DNA of 33,103 nucleotides from assembly GCA_027483245.1 (NCBI GenBank), contig JAIXVB010000570.1, positions 1 through 33,103 of the forward strand, written 5' to 3'. The DNA is from Verrucomicrobiaceae bacterium. Its GTDB lineage: Bacteria > Verrucomicrobiota > Verrucomicrobiia > Verrucomicrobiales > Verrucomicrobiaceae. The notes beneath the pieces were generated by a model. It was not told the DNA's origin. It ran no database searches and saw nothing but the letters and a program-made list of their open reading frames with translations. This document shows positions 9,346 to 29,614 of this stretch, piece after piece (position 1 is the first letter of the stretch; each line of letters begins with the position of its first letter). The translations under genes and the position numbers were made by a program.

Positions 9346-9506
9346 CGCGATTCATGCCACAGACTGCTGGAGAACCGAAACAAGTTTTATCCCCAGCCTT
9401 TCCGCACGAGACGGAAATGTGATCAACATCGGTATCAATGTTTCCAGCTCCGACAAAGACACCCCACGGACTCCGTAGCTCTCATTCGCGATCGCTGCTT
9501 TCCACC

Positions 9507-11117
9507 ATGAGAACTCTCCTGCTGCTCCTCACCCTCACCTTGTCAGCCCTGGCCGCTGATGAACCCTTCCCTGTGGTGCTGCAAAGCCGTAATCTCACCG
9601 GCAAAAAACTCTACACCCGCGAGCAATGGTTGCCCTCCAAGACGGCCATGATCGTTTGCGACATGTGGGATCGCCACACCAGCCCCAACGCGATGAAGCG
9701 TGAAGGCGAGATCGCTCCACGCATGAATGAGCTGCTGGAAAAGGCACGCGGTCAGGGCATCCTGATCATTCACGCCCCCAGCAGCTGCATGAAAAGCTAT
9801 GAGGGACACCCCGCTCGACTGCGCGCCCAAAGCGCCCCAACCGCAGCGCGACTACCCGACAAAATCGCCGAGTGGTGCAAACAAATTCCCACTGAGGAGC
9901 AGGCAATCTATCCCCTGGACCAGAGCGATGGTGGCTCGGATGACGATCCTGCCGTTCACGCCGCCTGGGCCCAAGAGGTCGCAGCTCAGGGCCTGAATCC
10001 CAAAGCACCTTGGACAAAACAGATCGATGTCTTGCGCATCGACCCAGCGACGGATGCGATCAGTGACTCTGGCATTGAGATCTGGAACCTCCTCGAAGCG
10101 CGCCAGATCGACAACGTCATCCTCATGGGCGTGCACACCAACATGTGCGTCTCCGGCCGCCCCTTTGGCCTGCGTCAAATGGCCAAGAATGGCAAACACG
10201 TCGCTCTCATGCGCGACTTGACCGACACGATGTACAACCCCCAACGCTGGCCCTTTGTCAGTCATCAGCGCGGCACGGAGCTCTACATCCAGCACGTGGA
10301 AAAGCGCATCTGCCCCACCCTCAGTTCCGATCAATTTCTCGGCGGGCAGCCCTTCACACTCAGCCAAGCCACGGCGGGTAAAAAACGGCTACAAATCCTT
10401 TTGTTAGGCGATAGCACCACCGAGGCGAAGTTTCCCAAGCTCTTGGCTCCCGATGAACCTCAACTGGAAGACAGTCTGCGCATTCTCCTCGCCAGCGAGC
10501 CCGATCTGCCACCCACCGATGTTCACAATGAAGGTCTCAGTGGCGAATACATCCGCCGACTGCTCGACACACGCTATGACCAAGCCGTGAAAGACAAACC
10601 TCAGGCCGATTACATCTTCATCCGCTACGGCATCAATGACTTGGCCAAACGAGAGTCGTTCGACACCCAATTCGTCCTGGATTACACCGAACTGATCAGT
10701 CGTCTGCGCCGCGATCATCCGCAGGCACAGATCATTCCCATGACTGTAATTCCCTATGGCTCAGAAGAGAACAACCAGAAGGTCAATCAGCTCATCCAAC
10801 AGGTCGCCAAGCAGCAGCAATTGACACTTTTTGACCTCTACCCTGCCTACGCCACCGCCCTGAAAGCGGGGCCCAACATGCTGAACTATCGGCGCATGGC
10901 TCTCTCGAAAATCCCTGCGCCGCTTCAGGCATTGGTCACGCCTTATGTCCAACCCGGCACAGTGCCAGAAGTGGTGGTTTTAGACAATCGACTGGATGCT
11001 CATCTGGGGCACCTCCCAGGCTGGTATGGCGATCGTCATCCCAACCTCGCGGGCTATCAAGTCATTGCCAGTGAAACTGCCAAGTTCCTGGCTCCGCTGA
11101 TCCGCCAGCGGAAGTAG
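9507..11117 (+). CDS. Secreted fusion of isochorismatase-like hydrolase and SGNH/GDSL hydrolase
   Basis: 536 residues from ATG 9507, chosen because MRTLLLLLTLTLSALAA is a classic signal peptide; an upstream frame to 9438 adds only an unlikely leader. Residues about 45-265 form a cysteine-hydrolase (isochorismatase-like) domain: Asp52 in IVCDMWD and the nucleophile Cys214 in GVHTNMCVSG. Residues about 292-536 form an SGNH hydrolase: GDST (301-304) with the serine, the glycine in NEGLSG, GIND (375-378) and the DRH catalytic Asp/His at 509-511. Both active sites look complete. The first class cleaves amide-type or enol-ether bonds, the second esters, so the protein could deacylate and then hydrolyse one exported substrate. 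That is inference. It converges on the next gene with 8 bases between. Confidence 0.9.
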   Translation: MRTLLLLLTLTLSALAADEPFPVVLQSRNLTGKKLYTREQWLPSKTAMIVCDMWDRHTSPNAMKREGEIAPRMNELLEKARGQGILIIHAPSSCMKSYEGHPARLRAQSAPTAARLPDKIAEWCKQIPTEEQAIYPLDQSDGGSDDDPAVHAAWAQEVAAQGLNPKAPWTKQIDVLRIDPATDAISDSGIEIWNLLEARQIDNVILMGVHTNMCVSGRPFGLRQMAKNGKHVALMRDLTDTMYNPQRWPFVSHQRGTELYIQHVEKRICPTLSSDQFLGGQPFTLSQATAGKKRLQILLLGDSTTEAKFPKLLAPDEPQLEDSLRILLASEPDLPPTDVHNEGLSGEYIRRLLDTRYDQAVKDKPQADYIFIRYGINDLAKRESFDTQFVLDYTELISRLRRDHPQAQIIPMTVIPYGSEENNQKVNQLIQQVAKQQQLTLFDLYPAYATALKAGPNMLNYRRMALSKIPAPLQALVTPYVQPGTVPEVVVLDNRLDAHLGHLPGWYGDRHPNLAGYQVIASETAKFLAPLIRQRK

Positions 11118-11125
11118 CAGAGCTC

Positions 11126-12175
11126 TCACTTTGCCCGTGTCGGATAGGTCCGTGAATGCTTTTGAGAGGGGACGTTCATCGTGTAGCTTTTGCCATCGTC
11201 ACTGACTTGGCAGTGCAGATGATGAGCGGCACAGGCATCCCCTGAGTCCGCGTGATTGGCGATCATCGACTTGTCTGCGGTGTTCTCTCGATCTTCACGT
11301 ATGTTCTCATGGACTTGATACATGGCCTGAATGGATGGAGTGGATTTGAGCGCGTCCATCGCTGATTGGCTGGTGCCTTTCTTCGGTCCATTGTTCATCA
11401 CCGAAACCGTGGGCTGAAGGCTGCGGATGAGCACGGGATTGTTGCTGGTATCCAGACCGTGATGATTCACCTGATACAGATCGACAACCCCCACGAGATT
11501 GATCGGTGTCACCAGCTTCTCCTCCACATTCCAGGTCAGATCACCTCCATCAAAGAAACGGAAGTCTCCGAACTCGAGCACCAGCACCACACTGTTGGCA
11601 TTGTCGCTGGGATCTGGCGCTTTTGGCGGCACTGAGCCTGTCAGCGGATTCTGTGCAGCACCCTCAGGAGCCTTGATGAACTTTTGGTTCGCGCCTAAAC
11701 AACGCAGCTTCAGCTTGGGGCCACGTGTGGGTTGCTTCAAAGTCACCTCATCGCCGGCTGTCAGCGTCGATCTTTTCGCCACCTTTGCGTTCAGATAAGG
11801 ACGACTCATCAGGGTCCAGCGCATGTCCTGGGGCTTGCCATCAGGACTGCCCTCCGGCACACCTTTGTCATGCAACGTGCCGATGGGCAGAAGCTCCGCC
11901 AGTTCTGCCAACCCACCGAAGTGATCCGCATGAAAATGCGTGATGATCACATGGTCGATCCGCTCCAGACCCGCAACTTCGCGAGCGATCTTGGCGATGC
12001 GCTGGGGATCACGCCCGCCAGGGTTCCCTGTGTCCACCAGCACTGACTCACCCTCGGGCGTCACGATCAACGTCGATCCCCCGCCCTCAGAGTCGATCCA
12101 ATAAAAATCCAGAGTCTGCTCACGAGCAAAGGCGGTGAAGGTAAGTGCCCAAAGGGCAACCAAAAGTAGTTTCAT
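11126..12175 (-). CDS. Secreted metallo-beta-lactamase-fold hydrolase (ComEC/Rec2-like)
   Basis: 349 residues from ATG 12175, which follows an AGGAG ribosome site by 10 bases (one of very few in this window) and gives a signal peptide (MKLLLVALWALTFTAFA). The metal-binding HxHxDH motif is THFHADHFGG (His80, His82, Asp84, His85). Further family positions are DGGDL and the late histidines in YQVNHHGLD. The layout resembles the ComEC C-terminal hydrolase group, whose members cleave phosphoesters or nucleic acid, but here it is a stand-alone exported protein. The C-terminus is His- and Asp-rich (NHADSGDACAAHHLHC). The substrate is unknown. It lies 115 bases downstream of the CehA/McbA-type gene on the same strand. 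Confidence 0.88.
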   Translation of the reverse strand: MKLLLVALWALTFTAFAREQTLDFYWIDSEGGGSTLIVTPEGESVLVDTGNPGGRDPQRIAKIAREVAGLERIDHVIITHFHADHFGGLAELAELLPIGTLHDKGVPEGSPDGKPQDMRWTLMSRPYLNAKVAKRSTLTAGDEVTLKQPTRGPKLKLRCLGANQKFIKAPEGAAQNPLTGSVPPKAPDPSDNANSVVLVLEFGDFRFFDGGDLTWNVEEKLVTPINLVGVVDLYQVNHHGLDTSNNPVLIRSLQPTVSVMNNGPKKGTSQSAMDALKSTPSIQAMYQVHENIREDRENTADKSMIANHADSGDACAAHHLHCQVSDDGKSYTMNVPSQKHSRTYPTRAK

Positions 12176-12290
12176 GATGTGTGTGCTCCTATCACCCCAG
12201 CTGAACGGACAAACTTTCATCTGAATCGAATTTCTCAGACGAGGCAGCGTTCGCAGAAAGGGTTCTCTGCCCAAGCATAACCAGCGGAAG

Positions 12291-15154: not shown

Positions 15155-16066
15155 ATGACCGTCCCCAGTTACCAAGATCTGATGTTGCCGCTTTTGCGGG
15201 TGCTAGGCACCGTGGAAAAAGATCTGCACCAGAAGGAATGCACGCAGCATGTTTCGGAGTTGCTCAAACTGACACCAGAACAACGGGAAGAGAGGCTGCC
15301 CAGCGGCTATCAGACCTATGTCCACAATCGCATCGGCTGGGCGGGGTGGTACATGCAACAGGCAGGACTGGTGATGAAGCCCAAGAAGGGGTTTCTCCGC
15401 ATCACCGATGAAGGCAGAGCGCTCCTCGCGAAAAATCCGGCTGCGATAGATACCAAGTTGCTGGCCACCTATGCCAGTTTTCAGAAGAGAGTGATGCAGA
15501 GCGGAGAAACGGCCACCGAGGCCACAATTCTGACCGCGATTCCTAACGAACAAACGCCAACTGACCAGATCGAGGAAGCTCATCAGAAGCTAAACCAGAC
15601 ACTTGCTTCAGACCTTCTCGATCTGATGGCCAAGATGGACCCTTACAAGTTTGAGCAGCTAGTGGTCGATCTGTTGTTTGCCATGGGCTACGGCGGCTCG
15701 AGGGCTGAGGCGGCCTTGGTCACGAAGAAATCGGGAGATGAAGGCATTGACGGCATCATCAATGAAGATCGCCTGGGACTGGATGTGATTTATGTCCAAG
15801 CCAAGCGCTGGCAGGCCACCGTTGGGCGTGTAGAGGTGCAGAACTTTGTCGGCGCGCTCGTTGGCAAACACGCACACAAGGGGGTCTTCATCACCACGAG
15901 TGACTTCCACAAAACCGCCATCGAGTATGCCAAAAACGTGCAGCACAAGGTCATCCTGATTAGTGGCCAGCGCCTCGCCGAGCTGATGATCGAATACGGT
16001 GTCGGAGTCTCCACCATCCGCACCATCGCCATCAAGCGACTGGATTCAGACTACTTTGAAGAGTGA
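15155..16066 (+). CDS. mrr: Mrr-family type IV restriction endonuclease
   Basis: 303 residues from ATG 15155. Mrr proteins cut DNA, in E. coli preferentially methylated DNA. Residues 1-95 match the Mrr N-terminal winged-helix domain (VPSYQDLMLPLL..., ITDEGRALL). The C-terminal nuclease domain has the PD-(D/E)xK variant of this family: Glu167 in FEQLVVDLL, Asp199 in GDEGIDG, and the Gln215-Lys217 pair in QAKRW, all present. GVFITTSDF follows as in other Mrr proteins. No methyltransferase or specificity gene lies beside it, as expected for a methyl-directed or solitary enzyme. The start has no Shine-Dalgarno. Function is inferred from family; the target modification is unknown. Confidence 0.92.
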   Translation: MTVPSYQDLMLPLLRVLGTVEKDLHQKECTQHVSELLKLTPEQREERLPSGYQTYVHNRIGWAGWYMQQAGLVMKPKKGFLRITDEGRALLAKNPAAIDTKLLATYASFQKRVMQSGETATEATILTAIPNEQTPTDQIEEAHQKLNQTLASDLLDLMAKMDPYKFEQLVVDLLFAMGYGGSRAEAALVTKKSGDEGIDGIINEDRLGLDVIYVQAKRWQATVGRVEVQNFVGALVGKHAHKGVFITTSDFHKTAIEYAKNVQHKVILISGQRLAELMIEYGVGVSTIRTIAIKRLDSDYFEE

Positions 16067-21686: not shown

Positions 21687-23093
21687 TTAGGCCTTCATGA
21701 ATCCAAGATCCGCATCGAAATTCTGAATGTTCGGAAAGACCTCACGGATCTGCGTTGGACTAAGACCAAACCACTTGGCCATCGTCGCCGCGTATTGATC
21801 GACCGCCGTGGTGGGAATCCAGTTGCCGCGTCCGGTGTTGAGCGGATGCCCCGCGAGATTGATGTCAGGATCAGGATACGAGCCATAGATCCTTTGGCCG
21901 TTCACACCTCCGCCCATGACCAAATGATGGCCACCCCAACCGTGGTCGGACCCGCGACCATTGGAGTCGTAGGTGCGATTAAAATCCGAGGCGGTGAAAC
22001 TGGTGACGGAATCTCCCATGCCGATGGTTTCCAGTCCATCTTGAAAGCCCTTCAACGCGGCACTGACCCCGCCCAACAGACCCGCATGGGTATCGAGCTG
22101 CGGTCCATGCGTGTCGAAACCACCGGTGGCGACAAAGAAGATCTGGCGAGTGATGCCCAGCGGTCCTTGGGCTTGAATCATCTTGGCCACCGTGCGCAAT
22201 TGCTCACCGAGACCCGAGTTCGGAATCGTGGGGAAATTGGACGTGCCCTGCAGCGCGGTGTTGATGGTATCCGCTTCGATGATCGACTTGTTCGAGAGAT
22301 CCGCAAAAGCGTCTTCCATCAGGTTCGCATACTCCGCGTTGAGGATGTTGCGAAAGGCGGTGTAGCGCGTCACATCCTGACTGCTGCTGCCTTGTCCCAG
22401 ACGAAACACAGGCGTGCCTCCTGGTCCTGGACGGAAGGGCAGCAGCGTCTTGCCTACTTGGAAAAAATTGGTGCCGCTGAGAGAGACCAGCATGGACACC
22501 GAGGTGCGTGCTTGGGTGCCGACCAGGGCCTCCGCCATGCGTGCGCCCCAACCCGTCTGGTTGTAGGCCGAATTCATCGTGCTGGCCGAGGTTTGCCACT
22601 GCAGTTGCTGATCGCTGTGTGAAAAAAGATTGTCTGGGATCGCCGCAGTGCCATTGCGGTAATCCTGCATCGTCGCTGGCGCGATGAGCGTGCCAACATT
22701 CGAGAGCAACGCCAATTTCCCCTGATTGTAGAGATCTCGACAGCCCGTCATGGAGGGATGCAGGCCCAGTTGCAGGCCATTGTCGTTGAGCGTGTTCAGC
22801 GCCAGGATATTGGCCTGCGGAATCGTCAGCACGCTGCGGCTAGCGGCATACTTGGAATGCGCCGAGGACTCGCGCGGCATGAGCAGATTGTTTGAGTCAT
22901 TGCCACCGTAGAGAAAAACACAGACAATCGCCTTGTAGGGCGTGCCTGGCGCCAGCACATCAGCTGCCTGGGCGTTCACGTGACGCAGCGTGAGGATCGT
23001 GTTCAGCAGGCAGGTCGTGGACATCGCCGAGCACGCGCTGGAGCCGAGGAAGTTCCGCCGCGTGAGAAGCGTGGGCATGTCATTGGGAGTCAT
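21687..23093 (-). CDS. Tat-exported DUF1501 family protein
   Basis: 468 residues from ATG 23093. A TTG at 23117 overlapping the upstream stop is an alternative. A twin-arginine signal (LTRRNFLGSSACSA, arginines 12-13) opens the protein. DUF1501 proteins are sulfatase-like in fold and of unproven function. Family features seen are VCVFLYGGNDSNN with its Asp/Asn pair, ATGGFDTHGPQ (the DTH motif), and SDHGWGGHHLVMGGGV near the C-terminus, which supplies the late Asp/His residues. Metal ligands thus appear intact. It directly follows the DUF1800 gene, the usual pairing in Planctomycetes, Verrucomicrobia and some Proteobacteria, which suggests joint export or complex formation. The substrate is unknown. 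Confidence 0.93.
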   Translation of the reverse strand: MTPNDMPTLLTRRNFLGSSACSAMSTTCLLNTILTLRHVNAQAADVLAPGTPYKAIVCVFLYGGNDSNNLLMPRESSAHSKYAASRSVLTIPQANILALNTLNDNGLQLGLHPSMTGCRDLYNQGKLALLSNVGTLIAPATMQDYRNGTAAIPDNLFSHSDQQLQWQTSASTMNSAYNQTGWGARMAEALVGTQARTSVSMLVSLSGTNFFQVGKTLLPFRPGPGGTPVFRLGQGSSSQDVTRYTAFRNILNAEYANLMEDAFADLSNKSIIEADTINTALQGTSNFPTIPNSGLGEQLRTVAKMIQAQGPLGITRQIFFVATGGFDTHGPQLDTHAGLLGGVSAALKGFQDGLETIGMGDSVTSFTASDFNRTYDSNGRGSDHGWGGHHLVMGGGVNGQRIYGSYPDPDINLAGHPLNTGRGNWIPTTAVDQYAATMAKWFGLSPTQIREVFPNIQNFDADLGFMKA

Positions 23094-23113
23094 GAGGAAA
23101 GAAAAGGCGGGGA

Positions 23114-26100
23114 TCAACGCTCCGTGGAGAACTCAGGGGAAGCCGTCAGCAGTTGCAGCATGACCTTCACTCCGTTGCTGGCATTGCTGGCATGCAGTGT
23201 GTGCAGACTGAGCAGGGACGCGCGCAGGTCTGCCGAGGCAGCGCGGCCTAACAAGAGGGTCTCTAATTTGGCAATCAAATCATTCGGGGTGCTCCACAGG
23301 GCGATCAAAGGAGCCAGGTCGAGACCGATGCGGCTGCCTTCATTGGTGTAGAAACCATGGGTCACGCCTTCAAAGAAATAGTTCGCCGTATCGGTGACCG
23401 TCAGCTCCGTGGTGATCTCATACTCAGGCGCAACAAAGCCGGCGTCCAAAATCGGCCCTGGAGGCTGGTAAGTGGGAACGAAGAAATTAAACACCGTCGG
23501 TGCCTGCATGGGCCACTGACCGAGTTCATCTCCCGCATTCCACAGGATGTAACGTCCTAAAGTCGGTGGATTGCTGCTCGGTGGCTTCGGAAAGGCGCGC
23601 AACAGACGCGTGAGGCGGATCATCGGCTCACTGAGTTTACCCGCACTGGCCGTGCTGCCGAGCGTGCGCGCTTCAGGGTCCAAAAGCAGCGCTTTCACCA
23701 CCGCGCTAAGATCACCCCGCACGCCTTTGCCATTGTCATCCCAGACTCGGCTCACACGAAAGACAAACGCAGGGCTGGGGTTGCTGGTGACCAAACGCTG
23801 TATGAGTTGTTTGGCAATGAACGGCCCGACATTCGGGTGCGCGGCCAAGAGATCCAAACAACGACGCACATCTTGCAGCGCCGTTTGGCCCGCAGGCACC
23901 GTGGCTCCACCGATGATGACTTTTTGTCCGCGATCATGCTGATCTTCAAAGGACATCAGCGGGTTGATTTCATCGGTCGCATTGCCACTCCAGGTGAAGG
24001 AGCGTGAGTTGTTGTAGGTCCAGCCCGTGAAAGCTCGAGAGAGCTCGCGAATCTGAGTCTGGTTGTAAGTCGGGATGGCATTGCCTGAGCCATCACGCTT
24101 GAAGGTGCCATCCTTGTTCAGATGCTCCAAACCAATGCTGAAGAGCTGCATGATCTCGCGCGGATAGTTTTCATCGGGCTGGGTCTTCGAGCTGCGCACG
24201 AGAGTCAGCCAAGTGGCCATCATGGGATTCAAGGTGACGTCTTCCAGCAGCTTGCGATATGTGGTGCCAGGCGTGATGCCACGCACCAGCAGATCGTAGT
24301 AGTTCGTGCAGCCTCGTGGGTAATTGCGCAGCGAGCCTGATTTGTCAGAAATCACCAGGATCTCGCTCAATGCGAGCGCAACTCTTTGACGCAACTGATC
24401 TGGGGCCGTCGCGGCCAAGGTCCACCAACTGTAAAGGCGATCTTCCGTGTTCAGAGGCGTGTTCGTCATCGGCATCACCGCTCCGGGCAAGCCCAAGGTG
24501 GTGGCCGTTCTTGAGAGCTCCAGTAGCTTTTCTTGAGCGCCTTCAAACAACGCCATGCGATCCAGATGCGTGAGGTGTGAGGACACCGGCAACGCGAGCT
24601 GTTCGTCGATCCACTTGGAGAAACCGATCTGCTTCACACGGGCAATGTCAGCCTCCGAAGGACCAAAACTGGCCTGCTTCAGAAAACGCGACGCCTCCGC
24701 GTCCGAGATCGTCGCAGGCGCAGTCCAGGGGGTGGTGGAATGGGTGCCACTGGCGTCTGCAGGATACGTCGGTGCCGTGCCTTCCGCGACCGCCACCGTG
24801 ACACGTCGAGTCGCCACCACGGACTGATTTCCGGCTGAATCGGTCACGACATAGCGCAGCACATAGGTGCCCGGTGTGGACGTGTCCACCGTGCCCTGCG
24901 TTGTCACCGAACCCGTGAGATCGCCATCTTCCAAATCCTGCGCGCTGAAGCCGGGATCGATGAAACTACCACCAACGCCGACCGTGACATCGCCTCCGCC
25001 TGTGAGGGTGATGGTGGGGGCCTGTCTGTCAGCCAGCTTGAAGGGTGAAAGAAACGCACCGTCGATGACTTCAAAATTGGTTAATCCAGGTCGCAGCCAA
25101 GCCAGCGCCAAGTGATCTCTCCAACCGGATTCTTTGTAGCGAATCTCGATGTAAACCGGCTTGCCCTTGGTCAGCATGATCGGACGCGAAAGCTGGTAGT
25201 CTGGGAACTTCCGCCACTCATAGTAGTCCGTGGCGGCTGGCACAAAACAGACGAGCTCCTTTTTCTCCGGCGTGAGATCCGAGCTGAGATAGACCTCGCT
25301 CCATTCATCGGAGGCGAGATTAAACCGGTGAATGCCTGTGGTCGGCACATGCAAATAACCGCGTAGCAGCATGCCGTAATTGTCGCCCGTGTTGGACACG
25401 ATCTCTGCCGAGCGAAGCTGGATGCGGTCATCCGGGCTGTTCGGGAACTTCGGGGACTTCACCAAATCTGTCACCCAACTGCCCGTGATGCCCGTGAAGG
25501 TTTCCGCGAGGATCGAACCAGTGCCTGGAGCCAGCGCCGGGGCTAGAACAAAAGTCGCCGTCGAACTGCGTGAGTGCGTGCCATCGGTGGCCGTGAGTTG
25601 GACCTGATAGGTGCCTGCCGAGGCAAATTCCACCTGTGTCGTCAGCGCTGTGGGTGCATCGAAGACCGTGTTGGCAACCGCGCCCGCCGGACCACTGATC
25701 ACAGACCAACGATAAGCCAGGGCTTGCGGTCCAGGCACATAATCCACCGCTGTGCCACGCAGAGTGAATCGAGCCCGCGGCCAGTAACTGCTCTGCCCAT
25801 CACCCGCACGCACACTGATCTCACCATCAAAGGCCGCCGCGTTGGTGCCATCAGGCGGGCTGAGCAAGACACCGGGCACAATCTGCGCTTCGGCATCGGT
25901 TTGTGAAGCGAGCCGATACGCCACGGCAAAGTAGTCATCGCTATTGCCCTCTTTGTGCAGCGCTTGCAGGTAATAACGTTTACCAGGAACCAAACGAATC
26001 GACGCGGACTTTTGCGAGGCATAACGGGTCCAGTTGTGATAACCCGTCGCCTGTGGTGTAAAGGCAATCTTCTGCGCGCCCGCCGCGGCTTCACCTGCAG

Positions 26101-29100
26101 GATTCAACCACAGCGCGCTTTCATCATCGCTAGCCACCAAGAATACATAATCGCCTTCGACGGGCACTTGGAGGTAACCCGTGAGCCGCTGCCCATAGTT
26201 GTCGGACCAGTTGCTCGGGGCTTCCAGATTTGGCAGGAGGTCACTGAAATTGGGCCGGCCGCTGTAGGCACTTGATTGGGTGAGGTTGGCCAATTGATAA
26301 CCCGAGACACCTGTCCACACTTCCCGAAGTAAACCGCCAGCCTTTGGCGCGAGTGGGTTTTGCACCGTGACGAGCAGGATATCGCTGCCCGTATTCGCTC
26401 CATCCGTGGCCGTGACTTTGATCTCATACACGCCCGGGCCTGTGAACTTCGCCATGGCAACCGGACCTGTTGCGCTGTCAAAACTCACCTTGGTGGACTT
26501 CGAGGACCATTGATAGGTCAAGGCTCGGGGTCCCTGCTTCAAATCATAAACCAGTGCTGCCAGTGCCAGCTGATTTTGTGGCCAGAGAATCGTGCGATCC
26601 GTGCCCAGGGCGACGGTGATTTCAGGATTGAATGCCGGAGCCACGCCTTCAGGTTTCAAAAATGCCCGTGAAAGCACTTCCCGCCCATTCGTGGCAGGAC
26701 CTTCGAGGGCGGCTGAGAAGTGATCATTGCCATTGCGTTCCTTGTGCAAGAACTGAATCGGATAAGCCACGTTCGCCACGAGATCCACCGTGCTGGATTT
26801 ATGATTTGGATGCCCATCCCAATCGCGGGGTGCGTGGCCTTCGTGATCGACATAAGCCAACCGCGTCGGCCCGGCCCCATCCTTCAAGTCCAATTGGAAA
26901 TCCGCCGAATCATCTGCGGCGATCCAAAAGGTGTAGCGTCCAGAAATCGGCACCGTGAGGGACCCCTTCAATCGCGTCGCATAATAATCTGCCCAGTTTT
27001 GCGGAGGCTCAACACCGGGCAGTTGATCCACCAGATGAGGGTAAGAGAGCGTGGAATCATAGGCCAAGAGGTCCTGCAAGGTTCCGCCTTCCACATCCAG
27101 CCAGACAGAGCGTGTCAGCGCGCCCGTGCCTGTCGCGATGGCTTTTTGAATCGTGAAGACGACGCTGTCACGATGCGTGTAAGTGCCCTCCGTCACGGCC
27201 AGTTCAAAGGTGTAAGTGCCGACGGCTGAGAAGATCACTTCACTGGTTAGGCTCGTGGGTTCCAACAGCGTGGCTTTCGGACCTGAAAGCTGTTTCCAAA
27301 GCGCCGTCGGTGTGTTGCTGGAGCTCAGGACCTTGATCGACGAACCTGCGAGTCGAGTGCGATCATGCGGCCACCAGTAGGTGCGATCGCGACCTGCGTT
27401 GGCATAAAAGGTCAAGGTTGGGTCAAAGGCGGAGGCTTTTTGTGCGGGCTCCAGGTAGCTGCCTTCAATGACCTGCGGACGACGATCTCCTTGCTTCGCC
27501 CACGCGACCGCAAAGTAATCGCTGCTCCACATTTCCTTGTGCAGCAGCTCGACAAAATAACGTCCGCCTGGCTTCAGCGATACAGGGGCAGATGTCTGGC
27601 TCGCTTCGTTCGTCCAGACTTCACGACCACTGGCAGTGGTGGTGAAGGCGACTTTTTGCAAATTGGCCGGGCTCGTGTCCGTGCTGATGGAAAACTCCGC
27701 GACATCATCTCCACTGACATAAAAAGTGTAATTCACCGGTGTCGTGCCAGAGCCAGGCACATTCAAGATGCCCGTGACTCGCGTGCCATAACGATCCGCC
27801 CAGTTGTTGTGCTGTTTCAGATCAGGAATCGTGTCCACGATGTCCGGCTGATGAGGAAAGGCCGGATCCGCACGCAGGGCATCCAGGTTGGCATAACTGC
27901 GATTCCACCAGATTTGACGAGTCAGGCTGCCCACGTTGGCATTGAGGGTAGGTTTTACTTCCACCGTCACTTCATCCGTGCTGGTGTTGTTCACCGTCGT
28001 CACGCTGTAGCGCAGCACATAAGTTCCGACTTTTGGAAAAGTGACCAGCGTTTGCGCCTTGTCTGCGGTCGAAAACAACACTCCAGGTGGGCCGCTGACC
28101 AGTGACCAAAGGCGTGTGGGAGTGTCGGCTCCCCAGATGCGGCGGGATTCATAGGCACTGAGGGAAAGGGAATTGCGCGGCCAATGGAGCAGGCCATCAC
28201 GACCTGCATTCAAAAGGTAATCATGCGTGAGATCAAACTCCTGCGTGCCCGCGATCACGGCTGCTGCGTTCGCCGGTGGGGCCAAATACTCACCGCTGAT
28301 CTCACTCAGGTATTCCTGCCCTGGTTGCTGCCACATGACCGTGAGATGGTCTGTGCCCCATTCCTCTTTGTGACGAATTTCAAATGCATACTTCTGCCCC
28401 GCAGTCAGCGAGATTGCCTCTGAGGCCTGCGTGACTTGATTGGCAAAGTCAGCCGGATTCACCGCTGTCGTGACCGAGGCGCGCAATTGCAGATTCTCAG
28501 GTGACGCATCCGTGCTCAGATGAAACTCCGCCTTTTCATTCGCTGCGATGAAGAAACGATAACTCCCTGTCGCAGGCACCAAGATAAAACCCCGGGTGCG
28601 AGTGCCAAAAAGATCCGCCAGACTCTGGGTGTTCGTGAGCGAGGTCACGAGGCGATGCGCATGCGGGAAGTTCGGGTAGTCGATGCTGCCCATGAGCGCC
28701 GCCACGGTGCTGCCATTCACGCCGAACCAATATTCTGACAACGCTTTGCCAGCATCCGCCGCAAGGGCTGGCAAGATCGTCACGGTGACGTCATCCGTCG
28801 CACTGTTCCCGGAGTGAGTGGCCGTGGCGCGAAAGACATAGGTGCCTTCACGAGTCACCGTCACAGGGGTGGAAGCCTGGGCAGGCGTGGTGATCGTCGC
28901 GGTCGGGCCGCTGACTTGACTCCAAAGAATCGACGGCGTCGTGTTCGCATTGGCGATATTCAGGGTCTGTGCCGTGAGCTGGATGCGATAGTTGGGGGCG
29001 TATTGCGTGACCGCTTTTCCAGCTTCGACCAAGAGACCCGTGGGGATGACTGCAGGCACTTCGAAAGGTGTCAGATTGGCCCCTGGAATCACCTGCGGTG

Positions 29101-29614
29101 TTGCATCAGGGGAGGTCGCCCAGCCAACAGCCAGACTATCACCGCCATTGCCCTCTTTCATCAGCGCCTCGATGTAATAACGCTGTCCGGCTTGCAGCGA
29201 GACCGGTGCGGATTTCTGTTCCGGGAACTTGGTCCAGCGCTGCGCCTCCGTCCAACCGGGCACATGAGCGATGCGCACCTTTTGGTTTGGCGAGTCATTC
29301 GTGCTCAGCCAGAGTTCGCAATGGTCATCACCACTGACCCAAAAAGTGTAACTGCCCGTGGTCGTGGGGGTCAAAAAGGCACGCATCCGTGTCCCATACA
29401 GTTCGGCCCAGTTGACCGGTGCCGCAAAGGTCGCCTCCACCGTTCTAAGAATCGGATTGCTGGGATAATCCGCCGACAAAGTCAGGTCCGCGATCTCCCC
29501 GCCTTCGAGCTGGGTCCACACCTCTCGCAGCACCCCTGAGGTCTGCGCTTGCATCGCCGGTGTCGCCGCCAAGAAAACAGCCAGGGAACTGGAAAAGAGG
29601 AAACGCATTACCAT
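23114..29614 (-). CDS. Giant secreted protein: six PA14 domains, PKD-like domains and a DUF1800 domain
   Basis: 2166 residues from ATG 29614 (a second ATG at 29608 is possible), with a signal peptide (about 1-23, ending MQAQ). Six PA14-type blocks are visible at about 26-185, 285-445, 560-722, 830-990, 1092-1252 and 1365-1525. Each has a YTFWVSGDD-like strand, an R/K-YY-IE or similar strand and an HKE(x)2(S/D)D(H/Y)-type turn. Between them lie five PKD/Ig-like domains with GTYxF/L strands. A DUF5011-type domain (about 1531-1608, APTITLTGG...DSAGN) precedes the DUF1800 domain (about 1640-2166, ASRFLKQASFGPSEADI, REIMQLFSIGL, FTGWTYN). PA14 domains often bind carbohydrate. The role of DUF1800 is unknown. 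The DUF1501 partner follows with a 21-base gap. Confidence 0.92.
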   Translation of the reverse strand: MVMRFLFSSSLAVFLAATPAMQAQTSGVLREVWTQLEGGEIADLTLSADYPSNPILRTVEATFAAPVNWAELYGTRMRAFLTPTTTGSYTFWVSGDDHCELWLSTNDSPNQKVRIAHVPGWTEAQRWTKFPEQKSAPVSLQAGQRYYIEALMKEGNGGDSLAVGWATSPDATPQVIPGANLTPFEVPAVIPTGLLVEAGKAVTQYAPNYRIQLTAQTLNIANANTTPSILWSQVSGPTATITTPAQASTPVTVTREGTYVFRATATHSGNSATDDVTVTILPALAADAGKALSEYWFGVNGSTVAALMGSIDYPNFPHAHRLVTSLTNTQSLADLFGTRTRGFILVPATGSYRFFIAANEKAEFHLSTDASPENLQLRASVTTAVNPADFANQVTQASEAISLTAGQKYAFEIRHKEEWGTDHLTVMWQQPGQEYLSEISGEYLAPPANAAAVIAGTQEFDLTHDYLLNAGRDGLLHWPRNSLSLSAYESRRIWGADTPTRLWSLVSGPPGVLFSTADKAQTLVTFPKVGTYVLRYSVTTVNNTSTDEVTVEVKPTLNANVGSLTRQIWWNRSYANLDALRADPAFPHQPDIVDTIPDLKQHNNWADRYGTRVTGILNVPGSGTTPVNYTFYVSGDDVAEFSISTDTSPANLQKVAFTTTASGREVWTNEASQTSAPVSLKPGGRYFVELLHKEMWSSDYFAVAWAKQGDRRPQVIEGSYLEPAQKASAFDPTLTFYANAGRDRTYWWPHDRTRLAGSSIKVLSSSNTPTALWKQLSGPKATLLEPTSLTSEVIFSAVGTYTFELAVTEGTYTHRDSVVFTIQKAIATGTGALTRSVWLDVEGGTLQDLLAYDSTLSYPHLVDQLPGVEPPQNWADYYATRLKGSLTVPISGRYTFWIAADDSADFQLDLKDGAGPTRLAYVDHEGHAPRDWDGHPNHKSSTVDLVANVAYPIQFLHKERNGNDHFSAALEGPATNGREVLSRAFLKPEGVAPAFNPEITVALGTDRTILWPQNQLALAALVYDLKQGPRALTYQWSSKSTKVSFDSATGPVAMAKFTGPGVYEIKVTATDGANTGSDILLVTVQNPLAPKAGGLLREVWTGVSGYQLANLTQSSAYSGRPNFSDLLPNLEAPSNWSDNYGQRLTGYLQVPVEGDYVFLVASDDESALWLNPAGEAAAGAQKIAFTPQATGYHNWTRYASQKSASIRLVPGKRYYLQALHKEGNSDDYFAVAYRLASQTDAEAQIVPGVLLSPPDGTNAAAFDGEISVRAGDGQSSYWPRARFTLRGTAVDYVPGPQALAYRWSVISGPAGAVANTVFDAPTALTTQVEFASAGTYQVQLTATDGTHSRSSTATFVLAPALAPGTGSILAETFTGITGSWVTDLVKSPKFPNSPDDRIQLRSAEIVSNTGDNYGMLLRGYLHVPTTGIHRFNLASDEWSEVYLSSDLTPEKKELVCFVPAATDYYEWRKFPDYQLSRPIMLTKGKPVYIEIRYKESGWRDHLALAWLRPGLTNFEVIDGAFLSPFKLADRQAPTITLTGGGDVTVGVGGSFIDPGFSAQDLEDGDLTGSVTTQGTVDTSTPGTYVLRYVVTDSAGNQSVVATRRVTVAVAEGTAPTYPADASGTHSTTPWTAPATISDAEASRFLKQASFGPSEADIARVKQIGFSKWIDEQLALPVSSHLTHLDRMALFEGAQEKLLELSRTATTLGLPGAVMPMTNTPLNTEDRLYSWWTLAATAPDQLRQRVALALSEILVISDKSGSLRNYPRGCTNYYDLLVRGITPGTTYRKLLEDVTLNPMMATWLTLVRSSKTQPDENYPREIMQLFSIGLEHLNKDGTFKRDGSGNAIPTYNQTQIRELSRAFTGWTYNNSRSFTWSGNATDEINPLMSFEDQHDRGQKVIIGGATVPAGQTALQDVRRCLDLLAAHPNVGPFIAKQLIQRLVTSNPSPAFVFRVSRVWDDNGKGVRGDLSAVVKALLLDPEARTLGSTASAGKLSEPMIRLTRLLRAFPKPPSSNPPTLGRYILWNAGDELGQWPMQAPTVFNFFVPTYQPPGPILDAGFVAPEYEITTELTVTDTANYFFEGVTHGFYTNEGSRIGLDLAPLIALWSTPNDLIAKLETLLLGRAASADLRASLLSLHTLHASNASNGVKVMLQLLTASPEFSTER

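Follow-up and report, generated by a model that had tools for sequence, protein, structure and literature searches.

The locus considered here encodes a protein in which an isochorismatase-like domain and an SGNH hydrolase domain follow one another behind a single hydrophobic leader, and it raises the question of whether both halves are enzymes and whether they serve a common purpose outside the cytoplasm. The gene lies in a stretch of 33,103 nucleotides from a Verrucomicrobiaceae bacterium (the window). The frame and coordinates given in a preliminary description, made from the sequence before any search, and the positions it named for Asp52, Cys214, Ser303, Asp509 and His511, proved exact (Table 1). 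Another in-frame ATG, at 9438, would lengthen the protein by 23 residues; alignments of homologues begin at residue 1 as numbered here. The reading favoured below, to which we give equal measures of credence and doubt, is that of an exported bifunctional hydrolase: a divergent cysteine hydrolase, probably active, would share one periplasmic pathway with an SGNH esterase of the normal kind.

Table 1. Coordinates, in the window, of the fusion gene, its parts and its convergent neighbour
Feature	Position	Strand	Basis or remark
Fusion gene, 536 aa	9507..11117	+	Single open reading frame; homologues align from residue 1
Predicted Sec-type signal peptide, residues 1 to about 16-17, without lipobox Cys	9507..9557	+	Sequence reading
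Isochorismatase-like module, residues about 20-285	9564..10361	+	Pfam, alignments, AlphaFold2, Foldseek
Linker, residues about 286-293, short and well ordered in the model	10362..10385	+	AlphaFold2 and alignment
SGNH/GDSL hydrolase domain, residues about 294-536	10386..11114	+	Pfam, alignment, Foldseek
MBL-fold hydrolase with hydrophobic leader, resembling the ComEC C-terminal part	11126-12274	-	Convergent with the fusion gene

Export of the fusion protein, whether to the periplasm or beyond, is supported by the leader, which was read by eye as MRTLLLLLTLTLSALA with cleavage before ADEP. Residues 1-15 are disordered and form the sole poor part of the full-length AlphaFold2 model. A hydrophobic leader precedes the first domain in all 44 fused loci, so that the exported fusion of two folds described at the outset is borne out by the leaders, by a confident model and by homologues in single open frames. 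The same description held isochorismatase-like enzymes to be mostly cytoplasmic; in these phyla exported ones are not uncommon, since 37 of the 39 isochorismatase-like loci that have no SGNH part also begin with a hydrophobic leader.

The C-terminal half matches PF13472 over residues 300-452 (E 4e-19, 70.1 bits against a cut-off of 32.9), and among solved structures Foldseek matches it with SGNH esterases of the Axe2 and PARMER_00689 types (E 1e-7). Its catalytic set is complete and invariant as read from the aligned sequences: block I with Ser303 (GDS), block II with Gly346, block III with Asn377 (GxND) and block V with Asp509 and His511 (DRHP, of the DxxH type, here D509-R-H511) are all conserved in 25 relatives and in 32 fused proteins. 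This half would thus be an ordinary active esterase or deacylase, with Ser303-Asp509-His511 as the triad and Gly346 and Asn377 in the oxyanion hole. The acetylxylan esterase models of NCBIfam were scored far below their cut-offs (AxeC2, NF042969, 23 of 500 bits; AxeA1, NF042968, 13 of 700 bits).

The N-terminal half belongs to the isochorismatase-like superfamily by fold. PF00857 is matched partially but above the cut-off at residues 191-241 (E 2e-9), and it is matched by all 34 aligned N modules. The full-length AlphaFold2 model, built with 82 related sequences, has a mean pLDDT of 93.1 and a pTM of 0.89, with both domains confident and the linker ordered, and the module modelled alone reaches a pLDDT of 94.1. 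Among solved structures Foldseek matches this half with RutB, TrtA and BiuH (E 1e-8 to 1e-6); for the lone module RutB is the top match (E 1e-8, TM-score about 0.53 by query), and the model thus shares the fold of RutB at a distant relation. A profile of the module compared by hhalign with a canonical superfamily profile of 18+4 sequences gave a probability of 98% (E 3e-13). The NCBIfam model of the biuret hydrolase BiuH (NF050097) was not reached, with 14.7 bits against a cut-off of 370. What places the module in the superfamily is its fold rather than an Asp-Lys-Cys chemistry.

The residues of this half set it apart. Asp52 and Cys214 are invariant in every aligned sequence (34 relatives from the wider family and 32 fused proteins), and so, in 32 of 32 fused proteins and in the wider family, are His210 and Arg218; further invariant positions of the module are Trp54, Ser92 and Asp183. 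The superfamily is characterized by a constellation of five residues (PMC12553813). Trp54 stands at the place of the substrate-holding Gln (D+2) and Ser92 at that of RutB Asn73; His210 lies four places before the Cys, where canonical members mostly have a small residue, and Arg218 is carried by a three-residue GRP insertion after Cys214. By alignment, Trp54, Asp183, His210 and Arg218 would form a constellation unlike the canonical one.

In RutB, PncA and EntB the canonical Lys, about 30 residues before the Cys, is part of a KxxYSAF-type motif, of which YecD has a close variant; the alignments show no conserved counterpart in the 34 relatives, and residues 179-183 of the fusion protein, DPATD, contain no Lys. 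The register was checked by MAFFT, by hhalign against single E. coli enzymes and by hhalign against the canonical profile. An invariant Lys in another register was considered and rejected: the three alignments differ, with column 179, 181 or 182 taking the canonical Lys, and none gives a conserved Lys. Most relatives have a gap at the first of these columns, the second is mostly acidic, and at the third K, E, Q or R predominate. At column 182 Lys occurs in 12 of 34 wider-family proteins and in 27 of 32 fusions, with Thr in the protein studied here; its frequency among the fusions is such that absence of Lys at this column is not claimed for the fused clade as a whole. The preliminary description had called both catalytic sets complete and had itself named the Lys as the residue on which its reading could fail. 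Its account stands for the SGNH set and falls short for the isochorismatase-like one.

In TrtA the pKa of the Cys is lowered by the Lys (PMC7948467), and RutB and Mhpg cannot do without it (PMC12553813); its lack of conservation in the module counts against an active N-terminal half. This half might then be catalytically dead and, as a binding or scaffold module, guide or stabilize its partner (SGNH here, ThuA elsewhere), which would leave the SGNH domain as the sole enzyme. Such a reading, which we judge unlikely, would account for the unconserved Lys, for the replacement of the D+2 Gln of the described constellation (PMC12553813) by Trp54 and for the joining of the module to several unrelated partner domains. 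It accords poorly with Cys214, Asp52 and a dense polar set that are invariant across phyla, beyond the usual conservation of scaffolds, and with the occurrence of the module without any partner. YcaC, moreover, retains a reactive Cys with Arg instead of Lys (PMC4519933) and provides a precedent for a superfamily member lacking the Lys. We consider enzyme activity of the module likely. In the bifunctional reading favoured here, Cys214 would attack a carbonyl or similar group with Asp52 as the base, and the positive charge usually contributed by Lys would most likely be supplied by the invariant His210 or by Arg218 of the GRP insertion.

The fusion is present in 29 of 34 genus-mates sampled, in 25 of them as one open frame (full-length homologues, 65-77% identity) and in four as pieces at contig ends or as a frameshifted copy; three of the others have the SGNH protein only and two have neither part. 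It also occurs in another genus of Verrucomicrobiaceae, in two genera that belong to a different family within the order, and in the cultured type strain Brevifollis gellanilyticus (L010). A chance join or assembly artefact is rejected on account of the 25 intact homologues in genus-mates and the cultured type strain. The fusion is a conserved speciality of Verrucomicrobiaceae, with few occurrences in other Verrucomicrobiota. Searches of the literature on the fusion, on isochorismatase with ThuA and on isochorismatase with Planctomycetes or Verrucomicrobia found no description; of the earlier proviso that the fusion might be widespread with a known role, only the first part applies.

Whether the tree is built from the module (99/97) or from the SGNH domain (100/100), the fused proteins fall into one clade, and this agreement indicates that the fusion arose once. 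Two stand-alone modules make up the sister group of the fused ones; they come from two Verrucomicrobiales-like genomes, each of which carries an unfused SGNH gene on another contig (G348, L109 and L039; G346, L110 and L037). The simplest history suggested by these trees is a single fusion of two pre-existing exported proteins, which would have taken place in an ancestor of Verrucomicrobiaceae.

The unfused genes also tend to occur together. The module is present in 15 of 18 genomes picked solely for an unfused SGNH protein, and in the order of Blastopirellula it is found in 6/6 SGNH genomes against 67/148 overall (one-sided p 0.008, shared ancestry not corrected). The converse is weak, with SGNH in 2 of 22 module-chosen genomes of Planctomycetota. 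This asymmetry fits a dependence of the SGNH protein on the pathway of the module better than the reverse. The presence of the module in 15 of the 18 genomes makes a functional link between the halves plausible. The proposal first made for this protein was that its two sites strip two groups in turn from one extracellular substrate, and the short ordered linker of the fusion and the co-occurrence of the unfused genes are what it would predict. We nevertheless consider it improbable, given that outside Verrucomicrobiaceae the module joins ThuA far more often than SGNH and that SGNH is found without the module. The three genus-mates with SGNH alone, together with the pairing of the module elsewhere with ThuA and other domains, indicate that the pairing is not obligatory.

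The neighbourhood of the gene bears on a third alternative, that co-export or stability was the gain when two exported hydrolases of related expression were fused, each of which would work on its own without shared chemistry. The fusion gene is flanked by genes for a RecQ-type helicase and the MBL-fold hydrolase, both on the minus strand, so it is probably transcribed alone; a promoter and terminator scan gave no signal exceeding shuffles. Across the fused loci no stable operon was found around the fusion. About half of the named fused loci have the convergent MBL-fold gene, and in six a ceramidase_alk-type gene lies upstream; both were judged too weak as clues to the substrate. Independent action would agree with this lack of a consistent operon, and with the unfused genes on different contigs, with no operon seen, in the nearest relatives; it is rated unlikely, as the fusion is kept in so many genus-mates with both sites conserved. 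Elsewhere in the window are a DUF1501 gene and, next to it, one whose 2,166-aa product combines PA14, PKD, Ig-like and DUF1800 domains (21687-29614, minus strand), and an Mrr-type restriction endonuclease gene (15155-16066, plus strand), with no methylase gene identified among the neighbours scanned.

Outside the fusions of Verrucomicrobiaceae the module is found mainly in Planctomycetota. Of the 39 loci that have the module but no SGNH part, ThuA follows in 26, ThuA and then a long C-terminal part in four, and the module stands alone in seven. In three of the four (L028, L035 and L042) the long part was identified as the DUF7133/TIGR02604 domain, and its C-terminus is of a heme-binding kind in L028 and L042. 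Three planctomycete chains of this architecture are export-type and 1,500 aa long (L028:5803-10401, L042:412-5076 and L043:5665-10335), the long part in L028 and L042 being a PVC-type propeller followed by a heme-binding domain with CxxCH. In L047 (5968-10476) the module is combined with a hydrazine-synthase-alpha middle domain (HZS_alpha, PF18582) and an FGE-sulfatase domain. In the genome studied here (G000) ThuA domains score above the Pfam cut-off at eleven places, and at none of these is an isochorismatase-like module attached. SGNH homologues are exported-type and mostly single-domain; in Verrucomicrobium sp. (L033:5806-7581 and L036:4750-6513) the SGNH family protein is followed by an SMP-30/gluconolactonase domain.

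The partner domains found elsewhere, namely ThuA, the PVC-type heme-binding CxxCH protein and SMP-30/gluconolactonase, suggest exported sugar or oxidative processing with carbohydrate derivatives as substrates. Under the bifunctional reading one periplasmic pathway would use both halves, the probable substrates being esters, lactones or amides derived from carbohydrates. A bolder proposal, speculative and unlikely, is that the module founds a widespread family of exported isochorismatase-fold enzymes, spread over Planctomycetota and Verrucomicrobiota and sparse in Acidobacteriota and Bacteroidota, with a new constellation Asp52-His210-Cys214 (perhaps with Arg218). Such a family would be coupled by turns to SGNH, ThuA or heme-binding PVC proteins as periplasmic partners and would carry out a step, so far not described, in the breakdown of sugar derivatives outside the cell. 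Many exported enzyme families of Planctomycetota and Verrucomicrobiota have no assigned function, and the near-invariant active site, the export leader and the partner swaps (esterase, ThuA, cytochrome-c proteins) offer a handle on one such pathway. This wider exported family is of greater interest than the fusion itself; the single-origin fusion in Brevifollis gellanilyticus, for its part, is a testable protein from a cultured strain, on which assays of both activities can be run side by side.

Compared with known systems, the module resembles RutB, TrtA and BiuH in fold, in the positions of Asp and Cys and in the TNxC motif. It differs from them in identity (about 15%), in its export leader, in Trp54 for Gln and Ser92 for RutB Asn73, in the lack of a conserved Lys, in the His four residues before the Cys, in the GRP insertion after it and in a long insert at about 95-165. 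YcaC is cytoplasmic and, unlike the fusion protein, single-domain; as judged from published accounts alone it is like the module in lacking the canonical Lys, in having Ser in motif II and in keeping Asp and Cys. Its residue at the Lys position is given as Arg84 (PMC4519933) or as Ala83 (PMC12553813). The SGNH half shares its fold and all catalytic blocks with Axe2-type esterases and with exported planctomycete GDSL proteins (among L037-L067), the latter being 55-61% identical to it; these relatives stand alone or are joined to SMP-30/gluconolactonase (L033, L036), and have no isochorismatase-like module. Exported isochorismatase-like/ThuA proteins of Planctomycetota (among L026-L080) are 50-65% identical to the module and have its invariant residues and export-type leader, and differ in that a C-terminal ThuA domain, or ThuA with a TIGR02604/TIGR02603 heme-binding protein, takes the place of the SGNH domain.
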